Of a stretch of 64,000 bases of DNA, positions 2,698 to 23,607 are shown one piece after another. Each line of letters starts with the position of its first letter. The first letter of the stretch is position 1. Both the position numbers and the translations under genes were made by a program. The DNA comes from Acidimicrobiales bacterium (lineage in GTDB: Bacteria > Actinomycetota > Acidimicrobiia > Acidimicrobiales > Aldehydirespiratoraceae), in the NCBI GenBank assembly GCA_029263215.1, contig JAJCXY010000053.1, forward strand, positions 1-64,000. Reading direction: 5' to 3'. The notes under the pieces are model-generated. The model was not told the DNA's origin, searched no databases, and saw nothing but the letters and a program-made list of their open reading frames with translations.

Positions 2698-2715
2698 ACC
2701 GACCGGACGGACGGT
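2698..2715. promoter_or_regulatory. TetR-type operator candidate upstream of the hcr/had/oah/dch operon
   Basis: ACCGACCG-GA-CGGACGGT, one mismatched pair, same architecture as 2536-2553 and 18614-18631; about 30 bp before the TTG start at 2745. Confidence 0.65.
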
Positions 2716-2744
2716 TGCCTTTCTTGTTGAAGGAGAAGGATATT

Positions 2745-4302: not shown

Positions 4303-4310
4303 GTGCCGCG

Positions 4311-5923: not shown

Positions 5924-8298
5924 GCGCCGGGAATCACACCGTGGTGGGCCGCCGTCTACCTCGCGTCGATGCTCTCCAGCAGACGACGGGCCAGACCCAA
6001 TTCGCCGACGACCTGAATCCGCCCGGCGCCCTGGTGGGCCGCCAACTCCGCAGCACCCACGCCCATGCCGCCATCACCTCGATCGACACTGTGGAGGCCG
6101 CCGCCTTGCCCGGCGTGAAGGCGGTGATCACCGGCGCCGATCTCCCCATCACCTACGGCATCCTGCCGGTGAGCCAGGATGAACACGCCCTGGCCCTCCA
6201 CCGGGTCCGCCACGTCGGTGAGCCGGTGGCGGCGGTGGCGGCCATCGACGCCGAGACCGCCGAACGTGCACTTGCGCTCATCCACGTGAAGTACGAGCCC
6301 CTCACCGAGGTGGTCACCCTCGACCAGGCCCTCGACCCCGACCGGCCCCTCATCCACGGCGAAGGCGACGGCCAGAACGTGCACCGCACCGCCGCCCTCG
6401 AATTCGGCGATGTGGCCGAGGGATTCGCGGCCGCCGGTCATGTGCGCGAAGACGTCTACTTCTTCGGCGGCAACACCCACGCGGCTCTCGAGACCCATGC
6501 CGCGGTGGCATCGTGCAGCCCTGAGGGGAAGGTGACCCTGTGGTCGGCCACCCAGGTGCCCCACTATGTGCATCGCGCTCTGGCGAAGGTGCTCGATATC
6601 CCCGCGGGCCGGATTCGGGTGATCGCCACTCCCAACGGGGGTGGATTCGGGGGCAAGACCGATCCGTTCTCCCACGAGTTGGTGGCCGCCAAGCTGGCCA
6701 TGATCACCGGGCGTCCGGTGAAGTTCAATCTCAGCCGCGAAGATGTGTTCTACGCCCACAGGGGCCGCCACCCGGTGCTCATGTGGGTCAAGACGGGATT
6801 CGAGAGCGATGGCCGGATAACGGCCATGCACTTTAAGTCGTTCCTCGACGGCGGTGCGTTCGGGAGCTACGGAACGGCTTCGCTCTATTACACCGGCGCA
6901 CTCCAGACGTCGACCTATCGCATCCCCAACTACTGCTTCGAAGGCATGCGGGTGTTCACCAACAAGCCGGCCTGCGGACCCAAGCGGGGCCACGGCACCC
7001 CCCAGGCGCGGTTTGCCATCGAAAGCCAACTCGACAAGGCCGCGGCTGACCTTGGAATCGACCCGGTTGCCATTCGGGTGCGAAACGCCGTTGAGCCGTT
7101 CTCCACCACCGTCAACCATCTCAGGATCACCAGCTGTGCGCTGAACGAATGCATCGACGCGGTGGTCGAGCAATCGGGGTTTCATCAGAAGCACGGCCAA
7201 CTCCCCGAGGGTCGCGGTGTCGGATTGGCCCTCGGTTGCTACATGTCCGGAGCCGGACTCCCCATCTACTTCAACAAGATGCCCCAATCCGAGGTGCAGC
7301 TGAAGGTGGACCGGGGTGGTGGCGTCACCGTCTACTCCGGCGCCACCGACATCGGCCAGGGCTCCACTTCGATGCTGGCCACCGTCGTGGCGGAATGTCT
7401 CGGTCTGGAGCCCGCCGAACTCACCATGATCACCGCCGACACCGACCTCACCCCGGTGGATCTGGGCAGCTATTCGAGTCGGGTCACGTTCATGGCGGGC
7501 AACGCCGCCCTCGAGGCGGCCACCAAGGTCCGTACCCGCCTCGTCGAAGCCGTAGCCGCCAAGCTCGAGGCCGCGGTCGAGGATCTGGAGGTGGCCAACG
7601 GTCGGGTCGGTGTGCTCGGCGATCCCGAGAGCGGGGTGTCGTGGACCGAAGCGGTGGTGCTGGCCACCGCCGCCACCGGTCCCCTGGTCGAGTCGGGCAG
7701 CTACACCGCCCCCAAGCTGGCCGGCCCCTACAAGGGTGCGGGAGTGGGGATCTCACCGGCCTACAGCTACTCGGCCTGCGTGGTGGAACTCGAAGTCGAC
7801 GCCGACACCGGCATGGTCGATGTCGACCGCGTGTGGATCGCCCACGACATCGGCAAGGCCTTGAATCCCCTGCTGTGTGAGGGCCAGGTTGAGGGCGGCG
7901 TCTACATGGGGCTCGGTGAGGTCCTGTTCGAGGAGCAGGCATTTCGCGACGGCCTGCACCGTGGCCCCTCCCTGCTGGACTACAAGATCCCCACATCGCT
8001 CGAGACCCCCACGGTGCACACCACCCTCATCGAGTCCGACGACCCCGAAGGCCCCTACGGAGCCAAGGAGGTCGGCCAGGGGCCTCTGCTTCCGGTGATT
8101 CCGGCGGTCGCCAACGCGATCCACGATGCCCTCGGCGTTCACATCGACGAGGTGCCGATAACCCCCGACAAGATTGTCGCCGCCATGAGAGACGCGGCTC
8201 GCGGCGGCTCTGGTCGAGTCGGACCCAAAGGGGTACCCGACTTCGATTTCGGTGAGCTGATCAGGGTCGAGCCCCCCGAAGGGTTCGTCGCACCATGA
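5920..8298 (+). CDS. hcrA: 4-hydroxybenzoyl-CoA reductase alpha subunit (molybdopterin)
   Basis: Xanthine-oxidase-family large subunit: NGGGFGGKTDPFSHELVAAKLA, GSYGTASLYYTGALQTSTYRIPNY, GATDIGQGSTSMLATVVAE, GPYGAKEVGQGPLLPVIPAVANAI; GTG start overlapping hcrC stop. Confidence 0.85.
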   Translation: MSAGNHTVVGRRLPRVDALQQTTGQTQFADDLNPPGALVGRQLRSTHAHAAITSIDTVEAAALPGVKAVITGADLPITYGILPVSQDEHALALHRVRHVGEPVAAVAAIDAETAERALALIHVKYEPLTEVVTLDQALDPDRPLIHGEGDGQNVHRTAALEFGDVAEGFAAAGHVREDVYFFGGNTHAALETHAAVASCSPEGKVTLWSATQVPHYVHRALAKVLDIPAGRIRVIATPNGGGFGGKTDPFSHELVAAKLAMITGRPVKFNLSREDVFYAHRGRHPVLMWVKTGFESDGRITAMHFKSFLDGGAFGSYGTASLYYTGALQTSTYRIPNYCFEGMRVFTNKPACGPKRGHGTPQARFAIESQLDKAAADLGIDPVAIRVRNAVEPFSTTVNHLRITSCALNECIDAVVEQSGFHQKHGQLPEGRGVGLALGCYMSGAGLPIYFNKMPQSEVQLKVDRGGGVTVYSGATDIGQGSTSMLATVVAECLGLEPAELTMITADTDLTPVDLGSYSSRVTFMAGNAALEAATKVRTRLVEAVAAKLEAAVEDLEVANGRVGVLGDPESGVSWTEAVVLATAATGPLVESGSYTAPKLAGPYKGAGVGISPAYSYSACVVELEVDADTGMVDVDRVWIAHDIGKALNPLLCEGQVEGGVYMGLGEVLFEEQAFRDGLHRGPSLLDYKIPTSLETPTVHTTLIESDDPEGPYGAKEVGQGPLLPVIPAVANAIHDALGVHIDEVPITPDKIVAAMRDAARGGSGRVGPKGVPDFDFGELIRVEPPEGFVAP

Positions 8299-9293
8299 CC
8301 ATGCGGCTCCCTCCCTTCGATCTCGTCACGCCCACCACGCTCCAGGAGGCGGCCGGCCTGATCTCGGACCCGACGGCCAGCATCGTGGGTGGCGGCACCG
8401 ATCTGTTCCCCAAGATGAAACGCAGGCAGACCACCCCGGTCACCCTGGTGTCCCTCGCCGAGATCGACGCACTCAAGGGCATTCGCATCGACGACGAGGG
8501 GCGTTGCGTCATCGGCGCCGGTGTAACCCTGGCCGAACTGGCGGACTCACCCCTTGTGCCGGCCGTGGTGGCATCGGCGGCGGATGCAATCGCCTCGCCG
8601 CAGATCCGCAACACCGCCACGGTGGGAGGCAACCTCTGCCTCGACACCCGCTGCAACTACATCGACATGCCCGAGCTGTGGCGCGAGGCCAGCGGGCATT
8701 GCCTCAAAGACGGAGGCGATACCTGTTGGGTTGCACCCCGCAGCGACCACTGCTGGGCGATCAGCTCAACCGACCTGGCCCCCGTCGCCATTGCGCTGGG
8801 AGGATCACTGAGGCTGGTCGCGGCCGATGGTGAACGAATCATCGACGTCGACGACTTCTTCCAAAACGACGGGATCGACTACCACACCAAATCGCCCGGT
8901 GAGATCGTCGTCGAACTCCTTCTACCGGCCTTCACGGGGCGGGCCACCTATCTCAAGCACCGCCGGCGGGGTTCGATCGATTTCCCCCTTCTCGGAGTGG
9001 CGGCCGCCGCCACCTTCGATGACGCGGCCAGGTGTACAGGTATCCGGCTGGTGGTGGGAGCGGTTGCGTCAGCCCCGTTGCGGGCCATCGCCGCCGAGGA
9101 GTTCCTGATCGGCCGAGAATTCACCGACGATGTCATTGAGGAGGCCACTCGCCTGGCCTCAAATCCGGTCCGGCCCCAGGACAACACCGACACCGGTTCG
9201 CGCTACCGGAAGTGGATGACACCAGTGTTCATAACCAGGGCCCTACAGGAGATCGCTTCCGACGACACGACCAACCAAGAAGAGGAACCGTGA
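8295..9293 (+). CDS. hcrB: 4-hydroxybenzoyl-CoA reductase beta subunit (FAD, with extra Cys-rich [4Fe-4S] insert)
   Basis: FAD motif IVGGGTDLFPKMKR and TVGGNLCLDTRCNYIDMPELWREASGHCLKDGGDTCWVAPRSDHCWAISSTDLAP: Cys-rich insert as known for HBCR beta subunits. Confidence 0.85.
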   Translation: MTMRLPPFDLVTPTTLQEAAGLISDPTASIVGGGTDLFPKMKRRQTTPVTLVSLAEIDALKGIRIDDEGRCVIGAGVTLAELADSPLVPAVVASAADAIASPQIRNTATVGGNLCLDTRCNYIDMPELWREASGHCLKDGGDTCWVAPRSDHCWAISSTDLAPVAIALGGSLRLVAADGERIIDVDDFFQNDGIDYHTKSPGEIVVELLLPAFTGRATYLKHRRRGSIDFPLLGVAAAATFDDAARCTGIRLVVGAVASAPLRAIAAEEFLIGREFTDDVIEEATRLASNPVRPQDNTDTGSRYRKWMTPVFITRALQEIASDDTTNQEEEP

Positions 9294-10357
9294 TGGAACC
9301 ACGCACCGATCGATACTCCTGGCGCATGGTGGGCCCCGACCAGCCCCTCGAGCGGGCTGAGGGCGCGGCGCGTCCCCCCGAGGATGGAGAGGTACTCGTC
9401 GAGATCGCCGGATGCGGGGTGTGTCACACCGACATCGGGTTCCTCGATGGAGATGTGAAGACCGTGGCCCCCCTGCCCCTCGTTCTCGGCCACGAGATCA
9501 GCGGCCATGTCGTCGAAGCCGGCGCCGGCGCCGAGTCCTGGATGGGCCGCGACGTACTGATTCCCGCAGTAATTCCCTGCGGCAACTGCGACCTCTGTTC
9601 GGCGGGCCGCTCGAACGTATGCCAAGAAGCACTGATGCCCGGAAACGACTTCGATGGCGGTTTCGCCAGCCATGTGACCGTTCCCGCCGCGGGCCTCTCG
9701 GTCATCGACGAACTGCCGCCCGGACTCGAACTGGCCGACCTGTGTGTAATCGCCGACGCGGTCACCACCCCCCTACAGGCGATGAAACGTGCGGAGGTGG
9801 CTGCTGGAGACTTCGTGGTGGTGGTCGGAGCGGGAGGGGTGGGCACCTACGCCGTGCAGATCGCCGCGGCCTACGGAGCGAATGTGGTGGCGATCGACAT
9901 CGACGACTCGCGCCTCGAACCTCTACTCCAGCACGGCGCAAGCGCAACCGTGAACGCCAGAGGGCTGTCGCCCCGAGAAGTGCGCGACCAGGTTCGTGCC
10001 CACGCGTCAGCGCTCGGTGCGCCGCGAACCGGTTGGAAGATCATGGAGTGTTCGGGAAGCTCGTCGGGCCAGGAGACCGCTTACGGCCTACTGGTTCCCG
10101 CCGCCATCCTCGGCGTGGTCGGCTTCACCCGCGACAAGGTGTCGATAAGGCTCTCCAACCTCATGGCCTTCGACGCCACCGCCATCGGCAACTGGGGTTG
10201 CCCGATCGAGCTCTACCCCGAAGCCGTCGAACTGGTCACCTCCGGCAAGATCGAAGTACTTCCTTTCACCCGCAAGGTCGCCATGAGCGAGATCAACACC
10301 GTGATGGCCGATGTGCACGAGGGCAACGATCCTCGGCGAACAATTCTCATCCCCTAA
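9293..10357 (+). CDS. had: 6-hydroxycyclohex-1-ene-1-carbonyl-CoA dehydrogenase
   Basis: Zn-alcohol dehydrogenase fold (GCGVCHTDIGFLDGDVKT...GHEISGHV, CGNCDLCSAGRSNVCQ, GAGGVGTYAVQIA) in operon with oah and dch. Confidence 0.85.
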   Translation: MEPRTDRYSWRMVGPDQPLERAEGAARPPEDGEVLVEIAGCGVCHTDIGFLDGDVKTVAPLPLVLGHEISGHVVEAGAGAESWMGRDVLIPAVIPCGNCDLCSAGRSNVCQEALMPGNDFDGGFASHVTVPAAGLSVIDELPPGLELADLCVIADAVTTPLQAMKRAEVAAGDFVVVVGAGGVGTYAVQIAAAYGANVVAIDIDDSRLEPLLQHGASATVNARGLSPREVRDQVRAHASALGAPRTGWKIMECSGSSSGQETAYGLLVPAAILGVVGFTRDKVSIRLSNLMAFDATAIGNWGCPIELYPEAVELVTSGKIEVLPFTRKVAMSEINTVMADVHEGNDPRRTILIP

Positions 10358-10369
10358 AGGAGCAATGCA

Positions 10370-11461
10370 ATGGAGTTTGTCAACCACGATCTCGACCCGA
10401 ACAAGGAGTTCAACGAGATCCTCTACGAGGAGCGACCGGTGTTCGATTCTGCCGGTGCGCCGGTGGAAGGTCTCCACTCGGTCTGGATCACCCTCGACAA
10501 CCCCGAACAGCTCAACTCGTACACCACCGGTGCCACCAAGGAAGTCATTTTTGCCTTCGGTAGGGCATCGGTGGATCGCGCCGCGGTGGCGGTGGTGTTC
10601 ACCGGTAGCGGCGACCGCTCCTTCTGCACCGGCGGCAATACCGAGGAGTACTCCGAGTACTACGCGGGCCGGCCCGGCGAGTACCGCCAGTACATGCGCC
10701 TGTTCAACGACATGGTGTCGGCGATCCTGGCCTGCGACAAGCCGGTGATCAACCGCGTCAACGGGATGCGGATCGGGGGTGGCCAGGAGATCGGAATGGC
10801 CTGCGACTTCACCCTGGCTGCCGACACCGCCCGGTTCGGCCAGGCCGGACCCAAGCACGGATCGGCTCCCGACGGAGGGTCCACCGACTTCCTGCATCTC
10901 TACGTTGGCTGGAGTGAGGCGATGGCCAGCTGTGTTCTCTGCGATCCGTGGAGCGCCCACGAGGCCATGCGCCTGGGTCTGGTCAACGACATCTTCCCGG
11001 TGCTGAAGGTCGATGGGGAGTTCGTGCCCAACCCCCTCGTGGTTACCGATCGTTACCTCGATGATTGGGGCAAGATCGTGCACGGCAAGTCGAAGGAGGG
11101 CGAGGCGCTGGCCGAGGGCAAGACAACGCTCAGGTCGGGAACAGTCGACTTCGAACTGCTCGACGCGGGGGTCGACGCAATGATCACCAAGATCCTCTAC
11201 ACCATGCCCGACTGCACCATCAAGACCGTCGAGTCGTTGCGCAAGAAGAAGCTCGAACACTGGGATCAGAACCGCGAAACCAACCGGGCCTGGCTCTCGC
11301 TCAACATGATGACGGAGGCCAAGGCGGGGTTCCAGGCCTTCCACCGCGGCTCTCGCGAGGTGGGAAGGGAGGTCGACTACATCGACCTTCGCCGTCGCCT
11401 CGCCAACGGAGAGGTGTGGGGCGACGACCTCATCGCGGCCGTCTCGCCCCAAGACTCGTGA
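10370..11461 (+). CDS. oah: 6-oxocyclohex-1-ene-1-carbonyl-CoA hydrolase (ring opening)
   Basis: Crotonase fold with long N-terminus; WITLDNPEQLNSYTTGATKEVIFAFGRASVDRAAVAVVFTGSGDRSFCTGGNTEEYSEYYAGRPGEYRQYMRLFNDMV; characteristic Oah/BamA residues. Confidence 0.9.
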   Translation: MEFVNHDLDPNKEFNEILYEERPVFDSAGAPVEGLHSVWITLDNPEQLNSYTTGATKEVIFAFGRASVDRAAVAVVFTGSGDRSFCTGGNTEEYSEYYAGRPGEYRQYMRLFNDMVSAILACDKPVINRVNGMRIGGGQEIGMACDFTLAADTARFGQAGPKHGSAPDGGSTDFLHLYVGWSEAMASCVLCDPWSAHEAMRLGLVNDIFPVLKVDGEFVPNPLVVTDRYLDDWGKIVHGKSKEGEALAEGKTTLRSGTVDFELLDAGVDAMITKILYTMPDCTIKTVESLRKKKLEHWDQNRETNRAWLSLNMMTEAKAGFQAFHRGSREVGREVDYIDLRRRLANGEVWGDDLIAAVSPQDS

Positions 11462-12219
11462 GCGGCGATCTGGTCGGTCACGACGTCTCCGACGACGGAT
11501 CGGTCCACACGATCACGCTCACCAGTCCCCCCGGCAATGTGATCGACATTGCCATGTGTGAGCGACTCGCGCCGGCCATCGCCAGTGCTGCGGAATCGAC
11601 CGACGCCAAGGTTCTGGTGTTGCGCGCCGAAGGCAAGCACTTCTCCTTCGGCGCCAGCGTGGAGGAGCATCTGCCCGACAAGGCGCCTGCGATGCTCGCC
11701 GCCCTCGGTGGGGTGATACGGCAGCTGATCGGCTTTCCCTACCCCACCATTGCCGTGGTGCAGGGCAGCTGCTTGGGTGGTGGACTCGAACTGGTCCTCG
11801 CCTGCGGCATTGTGATCGCCCACGAGGAAGCCACCCTGGCCAGCCCCGAGATCCAACTCGGGGTGATTGCCCCTGCAGCCACGGCCCTGATGGTGGGTCG
11901 GGCGGCGGAGGACCTGCTCCTTACCGGCAGGAGCGTCGGGGCCTCAGAGGCCCAGTTGATGGGGATCGTCAACATTGTGGTCGGCGACGACCTCGATGAA
12001 GCGATCGACACCTTCGTCGGTCGCCACTTCGTGAAGCGATCGCCTTTCTCGCTCAGGATGGCCACCAAGGCGGTGAGGGCCGGTCGTGTCGCCGAGGTCG
12101 AAGCCCGACTCGATGCGGCCGAGCGTCTCTATCTCGAGCAGCTCCTTCCCAGCCACGACGGAGTCGAAGGGATCAGAGCCTTCATCGACAAGCGTCCTGC
12201 CGAGTGGACCAACAGCTGA
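11458..12219 (+). CDS. dch: Cyclohexa-1,5-diene-1-carbonyl-CoA hydratase
   Basis: Crotonase family with FSFGASVEEHLPDKAPAML and CLGGGLELVLACGIVIAHEEATLASPEIQLGVIAP; GTG start overlapping oah stop. Confidence 0.85.
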   Translation: MSGDLVGHDVSDDGSVHTITLTSPPGNVIDIAMCERLAPAIASAAESTDAKVLVLRAEGKHFSFGASVEEHLPDKAPAMLAALGGVIRQLIGFPYPTIAVVQGSCLGGGLELVLACGIVIAHEEATLASPEIQLGVIAPAATALMVGRAAEDLLLTGRSVGASEAQLMGIVNIVVGDDLDEAIDTFVGRHFVKRSPFSLRMATKAVRAGRVAEVEARLDAAERLYLEQLLPSHDGVEGIRAFIDKRPAEWTNS

Positions 12220-12229
12220 GACCCGCGGC

Positions 12230-13525
12230 TCACTCAACGAAGAAGCGGCGGGCCTTCAGCTCGAACCGGGGGAGAGCTGAGCGCGGTACCCGAGTGACGG
12301 TGGGACGTAGGCCGAGAGCGGAGGCGAAGGCCTCGGCAACCTCGCGCTCGGCATCGGCCCCGTCGGTGCCGTCGCGACATTCGATCTCGATGAGCACCTC
12401 GCCCATCTCGCTACGGCTGGTGATCGTCACCCTGAACTCGTCGATGAACTGGTGGCGGCGCAGAAGGTTCTCCACCGCGGCGGGAAAGAGGTTGACCCCT
12501 CGAACCACCACCATGTCGTCGGCTCTGGCGATGATGCCCCCGGCGAATCGGGTGAACGTGCGGCCACAGGGGCACGGTGAATCGTCGATGCGCACGATGT
12601 CGCCGGTGCGGTAGCGAACCACCGGAAACCCGATGCGGCCCAGATTGGTGAGCACGAGCTCTCCCTGGCGCCCGGCATCCACCGGTCGACCAGAGTCGGG
12701 ATCGATCACCTCGACGATGAACTCACTGTCGATGGCGTGGGTGGCTCCGGTGCGCGCCTGGCAACCGAAGCTGTGAGCTCCGACCTCCGACGCGCCCGCA
12801 TGGTCGTAGCAGTGGGCCTGCCAGCCGGTCTCCAGTCGATCCCTGGTGGCGGGAATGCTCGCTCCGGTTTCGCCCGCGTGCACCATGGTGGCGATCGGAA
12901 TGCTCGACAGGTCGAACCCCTCTTCGCGGGCGATTTCGATGAGGCGCAGGGCATAGGTGGGGGTGCAGCACATAGCCGTGACGCCGAGGTCGGCCATCAA
13001 CTCGAGACGCTGGGTGGAGGTGCGACCTCCTCCAGGGATCATCATTGCTCCGACCCGTCGGGCACCGCCCAAGGCCGCCCAGAACCCGATGAAGGGTCCG
13101 AACGAGAAAGGAACGAACAGTCGATCCTTGGCGGTGACACCGGCTCCCGCCAGCACGAACCCCCAGCAGTGCCCCCACCAGTCCCAGCTTTCCACCGTGT
13201 CGAACACTCTGAGGGGCTCGCCGGTGGTGCCCGAGGTCTGGTGGATACGTGCGTAGGCATCTTCTTCGAAGGTGCAGTTGGCGCTCGAGACCCCGTCGGA
13301 CTGGGCCGCGAGCAGGTCGGCCTTGGTGGTGAACGGCAACTCGGCCAGATCATCGAAGGTGCGCACATCATCGGGGGTGGCCCCCGCGAGTTGGAGCTTC
13401 TGAGTGACGATCGGGTTCGCGCCGAAGGTCTTGGTCAACAGGGTGGCGAGCTTGGCTTCCTGGAGATCGCGCAGTCGCTCACGGGGCAGGGTCTCAATTC
13501 CCTGGTCGAAGAAGTTCGTTTCCAT
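12230..13525 (-). CDS. PaaK-type (phenylacetate-CoA ligase family) aryl-CoA ligase
   Basis: HQTSGTTGEPLRVFDTVESW, CYDHAGASEVGAHSFGC, YRTGDIVRIDDSPCPCGRTFTRFAGGIIARADDMVVVRGVNLFP; METNFFDQG... start at 13525. Confidence 0.85.
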   Translation of the reverse strand: METNFFDQGIETLPRERLRDLQEAKLATLLTKTFGANPIVTQKLQLAGATPDDVRTFDDLAELPFTTKADLLAAQSDGVSSANCTFEEDAYARIHQTSGTTGEPLRVFDTVESWDWWGHCWGFVLAGAGVTAKDRLFVPFSFGPFIGFWAALGGARRVGAMMIPGGGRTSTQRLELMADLGVTAMCCTPTYALRLIEIAREEGFDLSSIPIATMVHAGETGASIPATRDRLETGWQAHCYDHAGASEVGAHSFGCQARTGATHAIDSEFIVEVIDPDSGRPVDAGRQGELVLTNLGRIGFPVVRYRTGDIVRIDDSPCPCGRTFTRFAGGIIARADDMVVVRGVNLFPAAVENLLRRHQFIDEFRVTITSRSEMGEVLIEIECRDGTDGADAEREVAEAFASALGLRPTVTRVPRSALPRFELKARRFFVE

Positions 13526-13553
13526 CCTTCGTGTCCCGTGGGTCGGTGTTTGG

Positions 13554-13826
13554 TCAGCCCTGCTCGGCCTTGCGGGTGAACAGGGCCAGATAGGTGGAGC
13601 AGGCAGTCTCGGCGCAGCTGGTGCAGGCATCGCTGAAGCTCGCGGGATCGAGGCCGGTGGTGGTGGTCTCGAAGCCCATCGTGGAATAGAGCTCCTCCAG
13701 TTCGCCGATCCGTGATTCGTCGGAGACAGTTCGCTGTTCCCAGCCCTCGTCGGTGAGGGCGCGCGATTTCAGGACGACGATTCCCTCAGAGCAGTAGACC
13801 GGCTCGGAACCGTCCGGTTCACTCAC
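13554..13826 (-). CDS. Small (about 90 aa) Cys-containing protein of the bcr operon, function unknown
   Basis: GTG start overlaps the bcrD stop (GTGA); ...VYCSEGIVVLKSRAL...FSDACTSCAETACSTYLALFTRKAEQG. Confidence 0.65.
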   Translation of the reverse strand: MSEPDGSEPVYCSEGIVVLKSRALTDEGWEQRTVSDESRIGELEELYSTMGFETTTTGLDPASFSDACTSCAETACSTYLALFTRKAEQG

Positions 13827-14644
13827 GCGTCGGTGCCAACCAGTTCTTCGGTGCGGAGCTTCTCGAGGCGTCGGTGAGCGAGGATCGCGCAGCCGAGGGC
13901 CGATACGAACTGCACCATCTCTCCTTCGGGCACGTTGACTTCGGCATCGAGGAGCTTGCTGACCGAGGTGCCCATGGTCTCGAAGCGCAGAATCCCACCG
14001 ATGAGGGTGTATTCGGGTTCGGCCCGAACCCTTTTCATGAGCTGAACTGAGCGGCCGGTGAGCGATTCGATCGCCCCCTGCATGATGTCGGCCGGCGGGG
14101 TGCCCAACGACAGGTGGTTGATCACCTCAGATTCGGCGAACACGGCGCATACCCCCGAGATCGGCACCGGCTCCTTCGAGGTGGTCATCAGGGCACTGAT
14201 CTCCTCGGTGCCGAATCCCATGTAGCGAGCGGTTTTCTCGAGGAAGGCTCCGGTGCCGGCGGCGCACTTGTCGTTGAGCCGGAACGACACCACCTTCGCG
14301 ACCTCATCGACGCGACTGGCCTTCATGGTCTGGCCGCCCACGTCGAGAATCGTGCGGGTGCCGGGAAACAGGTGGCAGGCGCCGCGGGCGCTGGCGGTGA
14401 GATCGGTGACGTGCAGGTCCTTGAAGTCGACCTGGTGGCGACCCGAGCCGGTGGCGATCACGTAGGCGATGTCGGCCCGATCGACACCTGCGTCGTCAAG
14501 AGCTCGTTGGTATACGTCGTGGGCTACCTCTCGGAGCTTGAACCCGGTGGGAGACAGGGCCTTTCCGACGATCTGCTGGTCGTCGGTGAGGATCACCGCC
14601 TTGGCATAGGTGGAGCCGATGTCGAGCCCGGCTGTGATGGTCAT
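13823..14644 (-). CDS. bcrD: Class I benzoyl-CoA reductase subunit D (ASKHA ATPase)
   Basis: [22 protein letters not shown]..., [45 protein letters not shown] overlap with bcrA. Confidence 0.9.
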
Positions 14645-15456
14645 GAGTTGGCTCCGGTTTCTGCGGGCGTACGAGCCGCCAGGATGTTGTCGAGGGCAAA
14701 CATGGCGGCACCGAGTGCGCCCATGTAATGGCAGTCCTCGCTGATGTTGAGCTTCTTCTCCAGGCGATCCTCGAGGGCCTTGACCATGCCCTGGTTGCGC
14801 GAAACCCCTCCGGTGAACGTGATCTCGTCCTCGATCCCCACCCTGCGCATCAGGCCGGCCGAGCGAGAAGCGATCGACTTGTGCACCCCCCACAGGATGT
14901 CTTCGATCTTCTTGCCCTTACCGATCCAGGCGAGTACTTCTGATTCGGCGAAGACGGTGCAGGTGGTGCTGATCTTGATCGGCTTGGTGCTCTGGAGGGA
15001 GACGGGGCCGAGGTCGTCGAGGGGAATGTCGAGGGCGGCCGAGGCCGCTCCCAGGAAGCGCCCGGTACCCGCCGCACACTTGTCGTTCATGCAGAAGTCG
15101 GTAATCTCGCCGTCGGCGGTGACCGAGATCGCTTTCGTGTCCTGGCCCCCCATGTCGACCACGGTGCGGGTGTTGGGAAACAGGTGCACCGCGCCACGGC
15201 CGTGGCAGCTGATCTCGGTGACCTGGCTGTCGCCGAAGGTGACCCGGTAGCGGCCGTAGCCGGTACCGATGACGTACTTGACGTCGTCGCGGTTGATGTC
15301 GCCCTCCGTGAGCGCCTCGGCGAAGGCATCCTCGGCGGCCTGGATGACGTTGGCGCCGGTGTCGAGGAGCGCTCGACCCACGATCTTGGCGTCTTCGTCG
15401 ATGATGATTGCCTTGGTCTGGGTCGAACCGACGTCGACGCCTGCTGCGTATGCCAT
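14641..15456 (-). CDS. bcrA: Class I benzoyl-CoA reductase subunit A (ASKHA ATPase)
   Basis: [22 protein letters not shown]..., [48 protein letters not shown]. Confidence 0.9.
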
Positions 15457-15461
15457 GAGCT

Positions 15462-16766
15462 TCAGTCCTTCGGGCCGGCTTGGGCCATTTGTCGACGGGA
15501 TGCCAATCCTTCGAAGAAGGCATCGATTCGGTTCTTCATCTGGGCTTCGGAGACGACACGTCGGTCCATCATGTCGGACTCGATGAACAGGCTCGGTGTG
15601 CCGGTCTTCTCGGTGAGGCTGCGGCGGCCGTCGGCGAGGCCGGTGGACACGGTGCGACAGCTCTTGATGGGGTGGTAGATGACTCCGTCGGCGTGATGAT
15701 CGGCGATCATCTGCTCGAGCACGGTGTCTTGGTGGAACATCGAATCCATGGCGTCACGCACGGAGACGAGCATCCCTTCGGCGAGGCTGGCCAGCGGATC
15801 GTTGAGGTCGTACTCGAACCCCCGGTTGGTGCCTCCCGATGCGAACCACAGGTAGGTGGAGTTCACGAAGGTGCCGCCCCATTCGCTGAACAGTTCGTTG
15901 AATCGGCGGAAGATCGGGTAGCAGGGAACGCCCACGAACAGGAGGCGGTATTGCTCGTCCATGTCCTGGCCGAGCCCATTGGCCACCTTGTATTCCATTT
16001 CCTCGACGAGGCGCTCGAAGTAGCGAGCACCCTCTTCGGTGCCCCGGAATCCGTTGGCGACTCCGAGGTAGATCGTGCCGTCGGTGAGGGCGTTGAACAC
16101 CGAGGGCCGTGCCGAGTTGAGCTCGAGCATCCGGCTCCAGCAGCGGGTCATGGTGTTGGCGTGGCCGAGGATGTCGCGGAACTTGTCGATGTCGAAGCTC
16201 TTGCCGGTGACCTGCTCACAAACGGTGATCAGCTCTCGGAGCTGGACCTCGACGTACTTCCGGTCGGCTTCGAAGTCGGCGTTGCCGGCCCAGGTCTGGC
16301 CGCCGGCCTGGCGGGTGCCGGGAACGTCGATGGTGTACATGGGAGTGCCGTACATGCGCTCCCAGATCTCGGCCCATTTGATGTAGGTGTTGCAGGCGTT
16401 GGTGAGTACCGAGATGGTGGGCTTGGGGAGTCGGCCCATGGGGTGATCGCCGCCCCGGAGCTGCACTGCGACGTCGGCCTTGACGTAGCCGCAGATATCG
16501 GGCGAGTAGCCGTAGTCCTCGGCTTCTTCGAGAAGCTCGTGGGCGACGTGGCGTACCGCGGTTTGTAGCGAGGTGATCTCGGGAAACACCACCGGTAGGT
16601 CGAATGTCTTCAAGATCTCGTTACAGCTGCCCATGACGAATACGTAGGCGGCCTCGCCGCCGGTCTTCGCGGTTTCGCCGAGTTCGGCGAACCAGTCGCG
16701 AAACAGGGCGGCGCCTTCGATATTTCCTCGCCCCACCAGTTCGTGGGTGTCTTCAAGAGTGCTCAT
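15462..16766 (-). CDS. bcrB: Class I benzoyl-CoA reductase subunit B
   Basis: HgdB/BcrB family: [74 protein letters not shown]. Confidence 0.9.
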
Positions 16767-16794
16767 AGTCCCCTCCTCGAGGTTGGGATCGTGC

Positions 16795-17970
16795 TCATGC
16801 GAACAGCAGATTCTCGACGAAGGTCTCGACCTGCATCTCGAGCTGGCTGAACGACGTCATGTTCTCTTCGAATTCGCTCACGAAGTAGGCGATGCCTTCA
16901 TCGTCGAGAGCGTGGGTGTAGGTGACCTGCTCCTCGAGCCCGGGTTCGCACATCTTGGCGGCCGCGAGGATGGCGGCATCGGCTCGGGCCTCGTTGATGC
17001 GGGCGATGAGCATCTTCTCCTTGGGTTTGCGGTCGTCGTGTTGCACCGGGCTGTAGGACGACTGCTCGATGTAGGCCTCGGCCAGGTTGCGCAGGGGGTC
17101 GCCTTGGGTGTCGACGTCGCTAGTGATCCAGCGCATTCCGATGTGGAAGTCGTCGTCGACCACATAGCAGGTGCGCCCGAGCATGCGGATGAGATCGAAG
17201 GGGGGTTGCTCGCAGAATCCGCCCTCGAACACCACCCGAATCCGGTCTTCCTGCTTGGTGGAGCGCTCCCGGATTTGGGGGAGAAGGGTGGCGAGGAGCT
17301 CATTGTGCTCTTCGCGGGGGATCATCCCGGCCAACGACACCAGGGCATAGGCGTCCTCGGCGGCGATCAGCCAGGGTTGCTCGCGTTTGATGTCGTAGAG
17401 CTCACGCATCAGGCGTCGGTTTTCGTTGAAGACGGCGACGGAATGGGCGAGATCGTCGTCGCTGATCTCGCGGCCGGCTACCTCCTCGACGACACGGCGG
17501 ATTCGGTCGTACTCGTGGCGCAGGTAATCGACGCTCCCCGCCGAATTGGGGTTTTGGGGGAGGTAGAGAATCTGGCACGGGTAGTCGAAGTTGCGGCCCC
17601 AGATCGCAGCCAGGTTGCGGGCGGCATCGCAGATGGGATGGGAGACGAACATGTCGAACTGCACCCGGTCGCTGAGCGCCAACTCGAGGGAGGTCTTCAG
17701 GATCGAGCAGAGGTAGGAACCGAAGTGGGAGTCGGCGAGGTCGGGCTCGGTGGGAGCTCCGCGCACCTTGAAGGGGAGCATGCCGGCGGCGTGGATGATC
17801 TCTTCGGGGAACGACACCTGGAAGTGGCCGGCCACCTTGCCGCCTGCATCGCGCCAGCGGTTCACGGTCTCGAAATCGGGGGACTCGACCTGGTCGCGGC
17901 ATTCGAGAAGGGCATCGTCGAGTGATTTGCCGCGCCATTCGGGGAAGGTGACAGTGGTGGTGGGGGTCAT
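16795..17970 (-). CDS. bcrC: Class I benzoyl-CoA reductase subunit C
   Basis: HgdB/BcrC family: GHFQVSFPEEIIHAAGMLPFKVRGAPTEPDLADSHFGSYLCSILKTSLELAL, VSHPICDAARNLAAIW; followed by bcrB, bcrA and bcrD. Confidence 0.9.
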   Translation of the reverse strand: MTPTTTVTFPEWRGKSLDDALLECRDQVESPDFETVNRWRDAGGKVAGHFQVSFPEEIIHAAGMLPFKVRGAPTEPDLADSHFGSYLCSILKTSLELALSDRVQFDMFVSHPICDAARNLAAIWGRNFDYPCQILYLPQNPNSAGSVDYLRHEYDRIRRVVEEVAGREISDDDLAHSVAVFNENRRLMRELYDIKREQPWLIAAEDAYALVSLAGMIPREEHNELLATLLPQIRERSTKQEDRIRVVFEGGFCEQPPFDLIRMLGRTCYVVDDDFHIGMRWITSDVDTQGDPLRNLAEAYIEQSSYSPVQHDDRKPKEKMLIARINEARADAAILAAAKMCEPGLEEQVTYTHALDDEGIAYFVSEFEENMTSFSQLEMQVETFVENLLFA

Positions 17971-18590
17971 CGCGATTCTCCGTTTGTGTCGGCCGCGGCT
18001 CCGTGGAAGAAGAGTCCGAGGACATGGTCGAGGGAGGCGTCGGTGTTGCCGAACACGTTCCCGGCGTAGTCGCTGATCGATACCTCTACGAGGGCGACGA
18101 AGGACCAGGCGAGGACCCTGGCATCGCCTGGCGCCAGTTCGCCCTCTCGGATGCCGTCTTCGACGATGGTCTGGACCTGGTCGGGAAGGGCTCTTTGGTA
18201 GGCGATGACCAGAAGGCTGCGTTCTTCGCCGGCGAACGTGTTGATGTCTCGCCTGACGAGGCGGGTGAGTTCACGCTCCTCGTCGGGGAGTTCGAGGAAG
18301 GCCCGGGTGAGCTTCGCGAGCCGGTATTCGCACGAACCGGAGGCGGCGACGGCTTCGGCGAACAGGAGGCGCTTTCGCTCGAGGTCGGCGAGCATCATGG
18401 TGACGTAGAGCTTTTCCTTGCTCGCGAAGTGGTGGTAGAGGCCACCCTTGGTGACCTCCGCGGCCTGGGCGATCATGTCGGTGGTGACATCCGCGTAGTT
18501 CTTGGCGAGGAACAGGCGTTGGGCGGCGGCGACGATTCGCGCCGCCGTGGCCTCGGACTTGGTGGGTGGACTCTTGACTTGCAGTGTCAT
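17967..18590 (-). CDS. TetR-family regulator, first gene of the bcr operon
   Basis: MTLQVKSPPTKSEATAARIVAAAQRLFLAKNYADVTTDMIAQAAEVTKGGLYHHFASKEKLY HTH; ATG at 18590 chosen because the operator-like palindrome lies upstream; stop overlaps bcrC start (ATGA). Confidence 0.85.
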   Translation of the reverse strand: MTLQVKSPPTKSEATAARIVAAAQRLFLAKNYADVTTDMIAQAAEVTKGGLYHHFASKEKLYVTMMLADLERKRLLFAEAVAASGSCEYRLAKLTRAFLELPDEERELTRLVRRDINTFAGEERSLLVIAYQRALPDQVQTIVEDGIREGELAPGDARVLAWSFVALVEVSISDYAGNVFGNTDASLDHVLGLFFHGAAADTNGESR

Positions 18591-18613
18591 CTCGTCATTG
18601 ACCTCTGATACCG

Positions 18614-18631
18614 ACCGACTGACCGGTCGGT
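18614..18631. promoter_or_regulatory. TetR-type operator candidate between tetR-bcr operon and hemerythrin gene
   Basis: ACCGACTG-AC-CGGTCGGT, one mismatched pair (an additional ACCGACCG half-site begins at 18610); same architecture as 2536-2553 and 2698-2715. Confidence 0.75.
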
Positions 18632-18692
18632 AGTCACCATAAGGCGCGTTCCCGAATGTGTCAATGATGTTCAGGCCGAGTATTTTCACCCC

Positions 18693-19259
18693 ATGACAGA
18701 CGCCCAGGCGACCCCCACCGCGCTACTCCGACAGGAGCACGAGCTGATCCTCGAGATTGCCGGTGCGCTCGCGGCGGTGCTCGACGAGCCTGGCGATGTC
18801 GACTACGACGAGATCGAACGCTGTGTCACCTTCTTTCGACTCTTCGCCGATGCCTGCCACCACGGCAAGGAAGAAGACCTGCTTTTCCCGGCCCTCGAAG
18901 CGAACGGGATGCCTCAAGAGGGGGGTCCTGTTGCCGTGATGCTCTTCGAGCACGATGAAGGCCGTGAGCTGGTGCGAGAAATGAGCGATTCGCTGACGCC
19001 GGCCCGAGCAGGAGACGAGGGGGCCGCAGAAAACCTCAGAACTGCCGCGTTCGGATTCGTGGAGTTGATCACCGCCCACATCTCCAAGGAAAACAACATC
19101 TTGTTCGAGATGGCAGACCGGCTCATCGAGGGTGCCGACAAGGTCGAGTTGCTCTCTGCCTACGGTGCCACCGCCGATTCTCGCTACGAGGGCCACTCCA
19201 AACCAGAGCTCGAACAGATCGCCGCCGGAATCCTCCAGCGCCGGTCGCCTAGAGGCTGA
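18693..19259 (+). CDS. Hemerythrin (HHE domain) protein
   Basis: RQEHELILEIAGAL, ADACHHGKEEDLLFPALE, LFEHDEGRELVREM, ITAHISKENNILFEMAD. Confidence 0.85.
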   Translation: MTDAQATPTALLRQEHELILEIAGALAAVLDEPGDVDYDEIERCVTFFRLFADACHHGKEEDLLFPALEANGMPQEGGPVAVMLFEHDEGRELVREMSDSLTPARAGDEGAAENLRTAAFGFVELITAHISKENNILFEMADRLIEGADKVELLSAYGATADSRYEGHSKPELEQIAAGILQRRSPRG

Positions 19260-19815
19260 CCCACCCGTCGGGCGGTGGGCCCTTCCCGGGGTGTACCTCA
19301 GCGCAGTCGGGGCAGGTGCGCGCCTCGATGTCGTCGTGGAACGAGTCGTAGACCACCGGCAACACCTTCACGATGTTGGCCGGCTCGCCCAAGGGAAGCT
19401 CAACGCGGTGAACCATCGTGCCGCAGTTGAAGCAGTACCACTGGAAGGCTTCCTTCATGCCGTACATGCGTGGCGACTCGACCACAATCCCAACCGATCC
19501 CTCCTGAGGCCTCTGGGGAGCGTGGACGGTGTGGGCTTCCATCATGAACACTTCGCCCTCGCGGATGGGGACGTCGTAGATTTCTCCGTCCTCCGCGATC
19601 TTCAGCATCATGTCGCCCTTGACCTGAAAGAACCACTCCTCGACGGGGTCGTCGTGGAAATCCACGCGGGTGTTGGGCCCGCCGACCACCATCACGATCA
19701 TCCCCGAGTCGTGGTGCAGCAACTGATTGTTGACCGGAGGCTTCAGCCGATCCTGGTTGTCTTCGACCCACTTCTGGAAGTTGAAGGGAGTGAGGGTTGG
19801 ATGGAGTTTGCCCAT
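19249..19815 (-). CDS. nbaC: 3-hydroxyanthranilate 3,4-dioxygenase
   Basis: FNFQKWVEDNQDRLKPPVNNQLL, VVGGPNTRVDFHDDPVEEWFFQVKGDMMLKI, C-terminal rubredoxin-like YCFNCGT...CPDC. Confidence 0.85.
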   Translation of the reverse strand: MGKLHPTLTPFNFQKWVEDNQDRLKPPVNNQLLHHDSGMIVMVVGGPNTRVDFHDDPVEEWFFQVKGDMMLKIAEDGEIYDVPIREGEVFMMEAHTVHAPQRPQEGSVGIVVESPRMYGMKEAFQWYCFNCGTMVHRVELPLGEPANIVKVLPVVYDSFHDDIEARTCPDCAEVHPGKGPPPDGWVSL

Positions 19816-19964: not shown

Positions 19965-20912
19965 ATGAGCGATACCACACTCACGGTTGTCGCGATCGGT
20001 GGCAATTCGCTGCTCGACCCCGACCTCGAGCCGACGGTGGCCAACCAGTTCGCGGTCACCGCCGAGGCCATGGAGCCGGTCGCCGACCTTCTCGAGCGGG
20101 GCGAGCATCTGGTGCTCACCCACGGAAACGGGCCCCAGGTCGGGTTCCTCCAGCTTCGTTCGGAATTGGCTCGCGACTCCGTACATGAGGTGCCTCTCGA
20201 TTCTCTGGTTGCCGATACCCAGGGGGCGATGGGCTACATGATCGAGCGTGCCCTGCGCACCGCACTTCGGGAGCGGGGTCTCGACCTGCCGGTGGTCACG
20301 ATCGTCACCGAGGTGGAGGTCGACTCCGCCGACCCTGGCTTCGCCCAGCCCGACAAGCCGATCGGGCGTTTCTACGAAAAGGCCGAGGCCGAGGCTCTCG
20401 CCGCCGATCACGGCTGGACTCTGATGGAAGATCCCCGGCGCGGTCATCGCCGGGTTGTGGCGTCGCCCTCACCAAAACGAATAATGCAGTTGTCCACCAT
20501 CGAGCAGCTGGTCGACATGGGTGTCACCGTCATCTGCTGCGGCGGCGGCGGAGTGCCGGTGGCTCGCGGCGTCGACGGCACCCTCCGGGGGGCTGAGGCA
20601 GTCATCGACAAGGACCGGGTCAGCGCCATGCTCGCGTCCCAACTCGGCGCCGATCGACTGGTGATAACCACCGGCGTCGAATACGTCTTCGAGGACTACT
20701 ACTCCGACGACCCGATCCCCCGCCCCTTGCTGTCGATCGACGAGGCCCAAGAGATGGCGACGGCCGGCCAATTCGCGGCGGGCAGCATGGCCCCCAAGAT
20801 GGAGGCAGCCGTCAGCTATCTCGAGGCGGTCGATGGTGTGGCCCTGGTGTGTCTTCCCCGCGATCTCGTGTCTGCCATCGACGGGCAGACCGGCACTCGA
20901 ATTCATCGATGA
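19965..20912 (+). CDS. arcC: Carbamate kinase
   Basis: VVAIGGNSLL, VLTHGNGPQVGFL, ICCGGGGVPVAR, GAEAVIDKDRVSAMLASQLGAD, GSMAPKMEAA. Confidence 0.9.
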   Translation: MSDTTLTVVAIGGNSLLDPDLEPTVANQFAVTAEAMEPVADLLERGEHLVLTHGNGPQVGFLQLRSELARDSVHEVPLDSLVADTQGAMGYMIERALRTALRERGLDLPVVTIVTEVEVDSADPGFAQPDKPIGRFYEKAEAEALAADHGWTLMEDPRRGHRRVVASPSPKRIMQLSTIEQLVDMGVTVICCGGGGVPVARGVDGTLRGAEAVIDKDRVSAMLASQLGADRLVITTGVEYVFEDYYSDDPIPRPLLSIDEAQEMATAGQFAAGSMAPKMEAAVSYLEAVDGVALVCLPRDLVSAIDGQTGTRIHR

Positions 20913-20923
20913 TAGGAGAGTAA

Positions 20924-22072
20924 GTGAACCCCATGAGCCTTCTGGAGGCGCTCGATCAGAGCGATCTCGACGCGGTCTACAAGCGCAGCCTTCTCACCAC
21001 CCAGGGGTGGTCCGACGCCGATCTGGCGTCGATCCGATCGCTGGCCCGCACTCTTGCCGGCTTCGATCGCGCTGGTCTGTCGACGAGCCTGTGCCCGTCG
21101 GAATTGGCGTGGGCCGTTTTCTTCGACCAGTCGACTCGCACGAAGAGCGCGTGGGCCGGGGCTGCTTCGCGTCTCGGCATGCAGCCCGTGATCGTCGACG
21201 GCTCGTCCACCCAGGTCTCCCACGGTGAAACCGCGGTGGAGACCGGCGCGATGCTGGGGATGAATGCCCACGCGATGGGGATCAGGCACGACCTGATCCT
21301 CGGCGAGGGCAACACCTTCATCCGCGACATCACCCAAGGGATCGACGACTACCTCGCGGCCACCGACGACCCTCGGGCCGTGCCGGTGGTCAACCTCCAG
21401 TGCGATGTCGATCACCCCACCCAGTCCATGGCCGACTTGATGTGGCTCGAAGAGAAGTTCGGTGATCTCGCCGGAAAGAAGATCGCGGTGAGTTGGGCCT
21501 ACTCGCCGTCGTACGCCAAGCCCTTGTCGGTGCCCCAGGGTCTAGCCACCCTGCTCACCCGTTTCGGGGCCGATGTGACCCTGGCCCATCCCCCCGGCTA
21601 TCAGCTCATCGACGAGTGTATGGATGCTGCCCACGCCAATGCGGCCAACGGTGGATCGTTCCGGGTGGTCGACGACATGGACGAAGCCTTTGCCGATGCC
21701 GACATCGTCTACCCCAAGAGTTGGGGGGCCTACGACCTGATGCTCGAACGGGTCGACGCCAACGCCACCGGCGACACAGAGGGGTTGGCCGCAGTCGAAC
21801 AGAAGGCGCTGGCCCGCAATGCCGAGCACACCGACTGGATCTGCGATGAACGGCGGATGGGCCTCACTGCGGCGGGCGAGGCCCTCTACATGCACTGCCT
21901 GCCCGCCGACATCGGTGCGGAGGTGAGCCCGGGAGTGATGGACAAGTACAAGGTCGATGTGGCCCGGGAGGCCAACTACAAGGTTTATGTGGTGATGGCC
22001 CTGCTGGCCGCGGCCAAGGTGCCCGACATCGCCGCCCGACTGACAGAAATAGCCGAGGAGGCTTCCCAGTGA
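20924..22072 (+). CDS. ygeW: YgeW-like knotted carbamoyltransferase
   Basis: FFDQSTRTKSAWAGAASRLGM, LQCDVDHPTQSMADLMWLEEKFG, HCLPADIGAEVSPGVMDKYKVDVAREANYKVYV. Confidence 0.8.
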   Translation: MNPMSLLEALDQSDLDAVYKRSLLTTQGWSDADLASIRSLARTLAGFDRAGLSTSLCPSELAWAVFFDQSTRTKSAWAGAASRLGMQPVIVDGSSTQVSHGETAVETGAMLGMNAHAMGIRHDLILGEGNTFIRDITQGIDDYLAATDDPRAVPVVNLQCDVDHPTQSMADLMWLEEKFGDLAGKKIAVSWAYSPSYAKPLSVPQGLATLLTRFGADVTLAHPPGYQLIDECMDAAHANAANGGSFRVVDDMDEAFADADIVYPKSWGAYDLMLERVDANATGDTEGLAAVEQKALARNAEHTDWICDERRMGLTAAGEALYMHCLPADIGAEVSPGVMDKYKVDVAREANYKVYVVMALLAAAKVPDIAARLTEIAEEASQ

Positions 22073-23607
22073 CCAGTCTTGATACCCGCGTTGCCGAGCT
22101 CAGTGCCCAGTACCTGCCGCTGGCCGCCGAGATCCTGAAGGAGTGCATCCGCATCCCCGCCGACTATGTCGACCGCCCGGTCGATGAGGGAGGCGACCCC
22201 GACTGTGGCCTCAGCAATCATGAGGGACCCCGGCTTGAGTATCTGCACGACAAGATCATCGAGATCGGCGCGGTGCGTTCGCCTGCCGATGTGGGATTCG
22301 ACCCCTACGGCAACCTGGTCTGGTCGGTCGAGGATCCCGACGACGGCATCCCCCGCAGCGAGAAGCGTGTCGTCTACTTCGACGGCCACTCCGACACCGT
22401 CAAGGCGTTGAGGAGTACCTGGGCCGACAAGCTCGGAGGGATCGACGCCTACGACGGCATGGTCGACCCTTCCGCGATCGATCGCGACTATCTGCGCAGC
22501 GAGCTCGGTCATCTTCCTCCCGACGACGAATGGGATCAGCTGATCTTCGGGCGGGGATCCGCCGACCAGTTGGGTGGAGTGGTGTCGGAGGTGCTGGCCA
22601 CCAAGATCGCGTTGGAATTGGCCGATGAGGGTGCCCTGCGCGGCGTGATCGTGAGGGCCTACGCCACCGCCTGCGAAGAGGACAACGACGGCGGCGGCCC
22701 CATGTATCTCATGCGTGAGGTCCTGCCGGGCGCCGGGCCCGAACTCGTCCCCGACGTGGTGATCCTCACCGAAGGCACCGGCGATGCCCACAAGGGCGCG
22801 CTCGGTATCTATCGAGGCCAGCGCGGGCGCATGCAGATCGAGGTCACGGTCACGGGCCGTTCGTGTCATGGTTCGATGCCGTGGGAGGGTCTCAACCCAC
22901 TTGAGCATGGTGGCGCGATGGTGGCGGAGGCGGCTCGCCGCTACGGAGAGGGTGAAGGTTTCCTCGATGATCCGTTCCTGGGGGCGGGAAGTCGCACCGC
23001 TTCGTGGGCCACCTTGGAGTCGCCGAGCGATTGCGCGGTGCCCGATCGGTTCACCTTCCGCTTCGACCGGCGCCTGACGGTGGGCGAGACGCCCGAGCAG
23101 GCTCTGGCCGACATCGAGGCCCTAGATGCGGTTCGAGTGGCTCGGGAGGCCGGGCTCACCGTCGACATCGCCGTTCCGGTCTACGACCAGGCCACGTGGA
23201 AGGGCTACACGCTCGGGAATCCTCAGGTCTACATGGGCTGGGCTACTCCGGAAGACCATTCCTCGCTTCGGGTTGCGGCGTCGGTCTACGAGGATGTCGT
23301 TTCGCCCAACCTCACGCCGAGCCCGGTCGATGATGGGGGGTTGAGGTCCGAGGCCCGCGTCGATCGATGGATTTTCTCCACCGACGGTGTGGGTTTCCCG
23401 GTCCCGTCCGACGACACATCGATCGATGTCCCTTCTTCGAAGGCGTGGGTGGATGCCGGCAAGTATCGCCACCCCGCGATGTTCGGGTTCGGTCCCGGCA
23501 TCGAGCACAACACCCACAAGATCGGTGAGTGCGTCGACCAGCGTGAGCTCAGGCTCGTAATCGCGTTCCTGGCCCGATATCCGAGCGCCTATGCGGAAGG
23601 TGTTTGA
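22069..23607 (+). CDS. ygeY: YgeY-like M20-family deacetylase/peptidase
   Basis: LSNHEGPRLEYL, RVVYFDGHSDTVKALRSTWADK, FGRGSADQLGGVVSEVLATKIALELADEGALRGVIVRAYATACEEDNDGG; ATGA/GTGA-type overlap with ygeW stop. Confidence 0.75.
   Translation: MTSLDTRVAELSAQYLPLAAEILKECIRIPADYVDRPVDEGGDPDCGLSNHEGPRLEYLHDKIIEIGAVRSPADVGFDPYGNLVWSVEDPDDGIPRSEKRVVYFDGHSDTVKALRSTWADKLGGIDAYDGMVDPSAIDRDYLRSELGHLPPDDEWDQLIFGRGSADQLGGVVSEVLATKIALELADEGALRGVIVRAYATACEEDNDGGGPMYLMREVLPGAGPELVPDVVILTEGTGDAHKGALGIYRGQRGRMQIEVTVTGRSCHGSMPWEGLNPLEHGGAMVAEAARRYGEGEGFLDDPFLGAGSRTASWATLESPSDCAVPDRFTFRFDRRLTVGETPEQALADIEALDAVRVAREAGLTVDIAVPVYDQATWKGYTLGNPQVYMGWATPEDHSSLRVAASVYEDVVSPNLTPSPVDDGGLRSEARVDRWIFSTDGVGFPVPSDDTSIDVPSSKAWVDAGKYRHPAMFGFGPGIEHNTHKIGECVDQRELRLVIAFLARYPSAYAEGV

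Follow-up and report, generated by a model that had tools for sequence, protein, structure and literature searches.

The stretch of DNA analysed here (the window) comprises positions 1 to 64,000 of contig JAJCXY010000053.1 from an Acidimicrobiales bacterium, and carries at 12230–18590 an operon for a predicted class I (ATP-dependent) aryl-coenzyme A (aryl-CoA) reductase. Its seven open reading frames (ORFs), all on the minus strand, follow the order tetR-bcrC-bcrB-bcrA-bcrD-small ORF-PaaK-like ligase, with spacings along that order of −4, 28, 5, −4, −4 and ∼28 bp. An opposing run on the plus strand (2619–12219) holds an OB-fold/thiolase pair, a PrpF-family gene, hcrC, hcrA, hcrB, had, oah and dch; the same convergent arrangement was found again in three homologous loci (L012, L014, L016). 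A first-pass annotation, made from the DNA letters, had proposed this order and strand for the operon and had reported had, oah and dch as accompanying the reductase; all seven ORFs were recovered, and the three companions were located on the plus strand at 9302–12219, adjoining the operon. Its start for tetR (ATG 18590) was kept, a longer ORF reaching 18689 being rejected since the gene's own promoter and operator would fall inside it; the start of the PaaK-like ligase was corrected, most likely to ATG 13525. This predicted adenylate-forming aryl-CoA ligase (12230–13525, minus strand) scored 261 bits against NF041878 and 216 bits against TIGR02155, both below the equivalog cut-offs; besides the window, only L055 among loci L010–L089 has it at the reductase locus.

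The reductase subunits point to the 3-methylbenzoyl-CoA reductase type

Two HGD-D-fold subunits and two different ASKHA ATPase subunits are encoded together. When compared with the PDB, all four had subunits of MbdONQP, a 3-methylbenzoyl-CoA reductase, as their best solved homologues: BcrC (16795–17970), the putative non-catalytic subunit of the substrate-binding dimer, matched MbdN (9g87_B, 4e-156; HadC 4e-38, BzdN 3e-28); BcrB (15462–16766), the putative catalytic subunit, matched MbdO (9g87_A, 6.8e-160; HadB 1e-35, BzdO 3e-25); and the two predicted electron activators, BcrA (14641–15456) and BcrD (13823–14644), matched MbdQ (9gai_D, 6.8e-126) and MbdP (9gai_C, 9.9e-91), respectively. Such similarity (1e-90 to 1e-160) is far beyond chance. 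Class I enzymes are divided into BCR, MBR and BZD types (Fuchs et al., PMC11971306). Class I subunit models were among the best NCBIfam matches, yet all four subunits fell below the curated cut-offs, both for the Bcr type (TIGR02259-02263; A 216/578, B 208/487, D 151/313 and C 253/421 bits) and for the Bzd type (TIGR03190-03192), and both types were rejected on these models. It was this shortfall that led to the search by which the MBR (3-methylbenzoyl-CoA reductase) type was identified.

A BcrB tree of 91 rows, in which the Bcr-type rows were sequences above the TIGR02260 cut-off, gave a congruent picture. The window BcrB fell in an Acidimicrobiia clade of 13 rows (support value 99; one row labelled Gemmatimonadetes), nested in a 71-row multi-phylum clade (96) which, together with MbdO and deeper Acidimicrobiia rows, formed the MBR clade (99). 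MbdO itself is a long branch of unresolved position inside that clade, the sister of which was the Bcr-type sequences, with HadB and BzdO outside. The earlier call of a class I reductase operon was therefore borne out by homology, tree and gene order. As to the type, the first-pass annotation had suggested comparison with Bcr, Bzd and Bad enzymes; the reductase is assigned to none of these but to the MBR type. BcrB grouped with class I reductases and not among the 2-hydroxyacyl-CoA dehydratases, the placement which that annotation had named as contrary to its proposal.

Catalytic residues and motifs

BcrB Cys92, Cys125 and Cys370 correspond to BzdO Cys95, Cys128 and Cys380 (positions per PMC11971306), and Glu63 is the probable counterpart of BzdO Glu65, the BzdO match beginning at residue 75; all four BcrB residues, which would make up the catalytic [4Fe-4S]-OH2 site, are invariant across the sampled MBR rows. 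The position of BzdO His131 is occupied by Tyr128. Tyrosine was found here in 112/112 uncultured MBR sequences, versus Phe in MbdO and 10/10 Bcr-type sequences, Val in HadB and His in Bzd. Position 47 is likewise Ser in 111/111 uncultured MBR sequences but Asn in MbdO and 9/9 Bcr-type sequences. The scan of genome contigs used patterns taken from the window gene, one of them adjoining Tyr128, and is thus biased toward Tyr; the class-wide search by score, which is without this pattern bias and reaches ∼47–50% identity, likewise returned only Tyr. The Tyr128/Ser47 pair is treated as a variant within MBR and not as grounds for exclusion, pocket residues not being an established type criterion.

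In BcrC, Cys88, Cys114, Cys253 and Cys341 are invariant, Cys253 being present in all MBR (109/109) and Bcr-type (9/9) sequences and absent from HadC. A double-cubane cluster like that of BzdN was rejected for this subunit, only Cys88, 114 and 341 being kept and the other three ligands missing. BcrA and BcrD both bear the motifs NDKCAAGTG and C-x-VFAESEV, as had been noted at first reading; the two cysteines, Cys127 and Cys166, the pair expected to carry the [4Fe-4S] cluster between the ATPase subunits, were invariant in 107/107 homologues of each protein.

A small CxxCx4C protein accompanies the enzyme

The small ORF (13554–13826, minus strand), an obligate neighbour of bcrD, encodes a 90-residue protein with the motif GW-x2-R ... 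ELY-x2-GFE ... CxxCx4C ... TRK. An alignment of 13 sequences showed G-W, R, E, Y, G, Cys68, Cys71, Cys76 and Arg85 to be invariant in the family. No sequence match was obtained in Pfam, NCBIfam or the PDB, and an AlphaFold model of moderate confidence (mean pLDDT 71) resembled no fold in the PDB at E values up to 0.001. The family was present in 14/14 close-clade Acidimicrobiia carriers of the reductase versus 0/40 non-carriers (Fisher p = 3e-13, a value that, like those given below, is overstated because the genomes are related by descent), in 7/7 tested carriers from other phyla, and in 0/8 Bcr-type genomes. This CxxCx4C family is previously undescribed and was met with only in genomes that have this reductase; that it is so strictly linked to bcrD speaks for a dedicated accessory. 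One marine gammaproteobacterial genome (G444, Acidiferrobacteraceae; loci L159 and L160) has both the MBR-type bcrB and the small ORF family in duplicate.

Neighbouring pathway genes

In the plus-strand run, HcrC (5447–5923; the [2Fe-2S] gamma subunit of a predicted 4-hydroxybenzoyl-CoA reductase) had TIGR03193 as best family (180 bits, below the cut-off of 258), and HcrA (5914–8298; the Mo-bearing alpha subunit) scored 867 bits against TIGR03194 (cut-off 995; next family 541) and 628 bits against Thauera HcrA (1rm6_A; next structure 307). HcrB (8295–9293; the beta subunit; 1rm6_B, 1e-49) has the HcrB-type Cys loop, its Cys120/136/144/153 aligning with Thauera Cys122/138/146/155, the four residues of the extra loop that presumably bind a [4Fe-4S] cluster. 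Both had (9302–10357; TIGR03201, 450 bits, cut-off 339) and oah (10370–11461; TIGR03200, 545 bits, cut-off 464) exceeded their cut-offs, while dch (11458–12219) reached 227 bits against TIGR03189 (cut-off 293; next family 123). A benzoate-CoA ligase family protein, the probable entry enzyme, is encoded further along the same strand (24758–26281; TIGR02262, 536 bits, cut-off 375). The window thus holds a complete gene set leading from 4-hydroxybenzoate or benzoate to 3-hydroxypimelyl-CoA.

Ahead of hcrC, on the plus strand, stand genes for an OB-fold/zinc-ribbon thiolase partner (ChsH2/BbsA-like; 2619–3167; PF01796, PF12172), a BbsB-like thiolase (3160–4302) and a PrpF-family isomerase/tautomerase (4311–5450; PF04303), the last kept at the same place in L012, L014, L016 and L022. 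Divergent from the operon, on the plus strand, is a hemerythrin-domain gene (18693–19259; PF01814). Such genes occurred near the oxygen-sensitive reductase in 12/80 loci from several phyla, and oxygen sensing or scavenging is a possible role. It is followed by a gene for 3-hydroxyanthranilate 3,4-dioxygenase (19249–19815), an oxygen-dependent aromatic enzyme near the anaerobic operon, and by consecutive genes for carbamate kinase, a YgeW-like knotted carbamoyltransferase and a YgeY-like hydrolase (19965–23607).

Regulatory elements

A sigma-70-like promoter was found upstream of the tetR-bcr operon (18637–18664, minus strand; −35 TTGACA at 18664–18659, −10 TATGGT at 18642–18637, 16-bp spacer). 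Just downstream of the −10 box lies the palindromic putative TetR operator ACCGACCG-gtcagt-CGGTCGGT (18610–18631). This 22-bp palindrome is kept upstream of tetR in 18 homologues (the window and 17 loci, including Gemmatimonadota, Planctomycetota and Elusimicrobiota), with a TTGACA box upstream of it in most aligned loci, and occurs only once in the window when as many as 3 mismatches are allowed (0.01 expected). In a UBA5794 locus of Acidimicrobiia (L024) it takes the form ATAC-N10-GTAT, that reported for the MbdR operator (PMC4424350). The adjoining TetR-family regulator (17967–18590, minus strand), identified by NCBIfam and PDB TetR matches, is probably the operon repressor; it is weakly similar to MbdR (4uds, 1.6e-5). 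Near copies of the operator, with one mismatch, were seen at 2536–2553 and 2698–2715, near the start of the hcr-had-oah-dch run; the former lies inside a longer hairpin, possibly a terminator.

Host, co-occurrence and spread

The source is a metagenome-assembled genome (MAG) of 131 contigs with 3.67% contamination, in which genome-wide checks were made family by family. It returned three haem-copper oxidase matches, two partial NarG genes and homologues of 2-oxoacid:ferredoxin oxidoreductases, and thereby conforms to the pattern that class I enzymes are found in facultative anaerobes (PMC11971306). A reductase match was found in 36/395 genomes of the class Acidimicrobiia, ∼20 of them in the close clade, and in 0/36 other members of the window's own family; so patchy a distribution suggests transfer or loss. 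True Oah (above the cut-off) was present in 12/14 close-clade carriers versus 0/40 non-carriers (Fisher p = 3e-10), and NarG in 8/14 versus 3/40 (p = 3e-4). In a deeper Acidimicrobiia clade of the MBR type (L113–L118, 47–53% identity), Oah and the small ORF are both mostly missing, and the enzyme may therefore serve another function there.

Beyond the class, the contig scan recorded 246 encoded relatives, the best 80 at ≥70% identity. The labels of these 80 are Actinomycetota, Planctomycetota, Gemmatimonadota, Acidobacteriota, Chloroflexota, Pseudomonadota, Zixibacteriota, Eisenbacteria, Calditrichota, KSB1, Elusimicrobiota and Bdellovibrionota, and they include the chromosome-level records CP070639, CP070812 and CP070815; individual labels may reflect misbinning. 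Plasmid records held only remote relatives (21–28% identity). True Oah was found in 19/50 carriers from other phyla, most others having a divergent Oah-like protein (110–215 bits). In many such carriers (G432–G480) the place of true Oah is taken by this crotonase family of ∼350–430 residues, which scores ≤215 bits against TIGR03200. At nine Planctomycetota loci (L028, L029, L031, L033, L037–L039, L061, L084) a second, distinct HGD-D family protein (PF06050) is encoded ∼10 kb upstream of bcrB, close to genes for a 3-hydroxyacyl-CoA dehydrogenase/crotonase fusion, a thiolase and an AMP ligase; it groups with neither the Bcr nor the MBR type.

Proposed function and alternatives

The locus is best read as the means by which a facultatively anaerobic acidimicrobial actinobacterium degrades benzoate and 4-hydroxybenzoate without oxygen, by way of benzoyl-CoA; this reading is given a probability of about 0.8. 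The aryl-CoA ligases would make the thioester, and HcrABC would take off the para-hydroxyl group. Reduced ferredoxin would probably feed the BcrA/BcrD ATPase dimer, where ATP hydrolysis would drive electrons via a bridging [4Fe-4S] cluster into BcrC/BcrB, the ring being reduced by BcrB at a [4Fe-4S] cluster held by Cys92, 125 and 370, with Glu63 as the putative proton donor. Dch would then hydrate the product, Had oxidise it and Oah open the ring ahead of beta-oxidation. As long as no aryl-CoA ester is present, the operon is probably kept silent by a TetR repressor occupying ACCGACCGGTCAGTCGGTCGGT. Possible tasks of the small CxxCx4C protein include cluster assembly, protection and electron delivery.

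Several points weigh against this reading. As 3-methylbenzoyl-CoA is the substrate of the best characterised relative, the assignment of benzoyl-CoA to this enzyme rests on the neighbouring Hcr, Dch, Had and Oah; Tyr128 and Ser47 in the pocket are unlike the Phe and Asn of both MbdO and Bcr, and the substrate may differ accordingly; two close-clade genomes (G097, G208) have no Oah; the genome is a fragmented MAG; and common descent inflates the co-occurrence statistics. The first two of these, together with the naming of MbrCBAD of Magnetospirillum pMbN1 as a 4-methylbenzoyl-CoA reductase (PMC4268860), speak for an enzyme of the same class that prefers 3- or 4-methylbenzoyl-CoA, halobenzoyl-CoA or another substituted aryl-CoA. 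Such a preference is nevertheless considered unlikely: the adjoining HcrABC would yield unsubstituted benzoyl-CoA, Oah and Had exceed the equivalog cut-offs of the unsubstituted pathway, and the same neighbours were found in several Acidimicrobiia.

A 2-hydroxyacyl-CoA dehydratase with its activator, for amino-acid fermentation, would belong to the same superfamily (as the BcrB match to HadB attests), and BcrC resembles HadC in lacking three of the six BzdN double-cubane cysteines. However, two different activator genes were found and not a single homodimeric one, HadBC-I is not the closest relative (MBR scores were ∼400 bits higher), and the tree position of BcrB, Cys253 of BcrC, and an oah, had and dch that both adjoin and co-occur with the reductase render this explanation very improbable. 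That the contig was misbinned and is not actinobacterial, as the MAG's contamination and the gene's absence from other members of the family searched might suggest, is scarcely credible, since a different gene of the window has an ortholog at 70% identity in a genome of the same family (G016) and one at 47% in the same order, which argues that the contig is native to its host, the BcrB clade is almost wholly of Acidimicrobiia, including a UBA5794 member on a 253-kb contig (L024, like L023 of Acidimicrobiaceae of the same class as the window genome), and operon and contig differ little in GC content.

A further and tentative proposal is that the enzyme belongs to a distinct ‘Tyr-type’ class I subclass, with Tyr for Phe/His beside the cluster-bound water and the CxxCx4C protein as an obligate fifth component, common in uncultured bacteria of many phyla and reducing different or broader aryl-CoA esters than the proteobacterial enzymes studied. 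Class I ring reductases are regarded as the preserve of a few facultatively anaerobic proteobacteria; given a close and coherent group of them in Acidimicrobiia, Planctomycetota, Gemmatimonadota, Acidobacteriota, Chloroflexota and other taxa, anaerobic cleavage of aromatic rings would be within reach of many uncultured bacteria. The active-site change and the partner gene are both directly testable, and the group's markers offer the specificity needed for metagenome surveys, in which the enzyme tends at present to be recorded as generic bcr or bzd.

Comparison with known systems

The inferred actinobacterial host proved right, the genome belonging to Acidimicrobiia and not to a proteobacterium; the expected extension of the range of class I reductases held in that a complete set is present in an actinobacterial genome, but was partly anticipated. 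Class I genes have been reported in Chloroflexi DscP3/Dsc4 (PMC5736913) and in Dehalococcoidia, Anaerolineae, Aminicenantes, TA06, Thermoplasmata and Bathyarchaeota (PMC6472368), bcrBC in some marine-sediment UBA5794 Acidimicrobiia, where they were assigned to toluene degradation (PMC12008989), and a partial pathway in Actinobacteriota and Zixibacteria MAGs (PMC12869995). For these bacteria, the open literature (subscription journals were not covered) yielded no earlier report of an MBR assignment, nor was any found of the Tyr signature, the small ORF or the operator. New here are the spread of the enzyme across uncultured bacteria of ∼12 phyla, the Tyr128 signature, the small ORF family and the conserved TetR operator.

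HcrABC resembles that of Thauera aromatica (PDB 1rm6) in its three subunits and in the identical spacing of the four beta-loop cysteines, but scores 61–87% of the equivalog cut-offs. With BzdNO of the Bzd type (PDB 8s02) the reductase shares the reaction class and the three catalytic cysteines; it differs in BcrB (29% identity), in Tyr128 in place of His131, and in the absence from BcrC of the double-cubane ligands Cys36, 263 and 293. The Bcr type (TIGR02259-02263) has the same subunit set, the downstream dch-had-oah genes and BcrC Cys253, whereas BcrB identity is ∼30–33%, the window proteins score 37–60% of the equivalog cut-offs, BcrA has 271 residues against the 432 positions of the TIGR02259 model, and the sampled Bcr genomes lack the small ORF. 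The closest likeness is to MbdONQP of Aromatoleum sp. CIB (PDB 9g87, 9gai), with the same four subunits (BcrB 56% identical to MbdO, BcrC 59% to MbdN), the same catalytic Cys and Glu, and a TetR regulator whose palindromic operator overlies the promoter (MbdR, PMC4424350). The window system is set apart from it by Tyr128 for Phe and Ser47 for Asn in BcrB, by the small CxxCx4C companion gene (for which the comparison, covering the PDB and not the mbd cluster, gave no counterpart), and by its hcr linkage and actinobacterial host.

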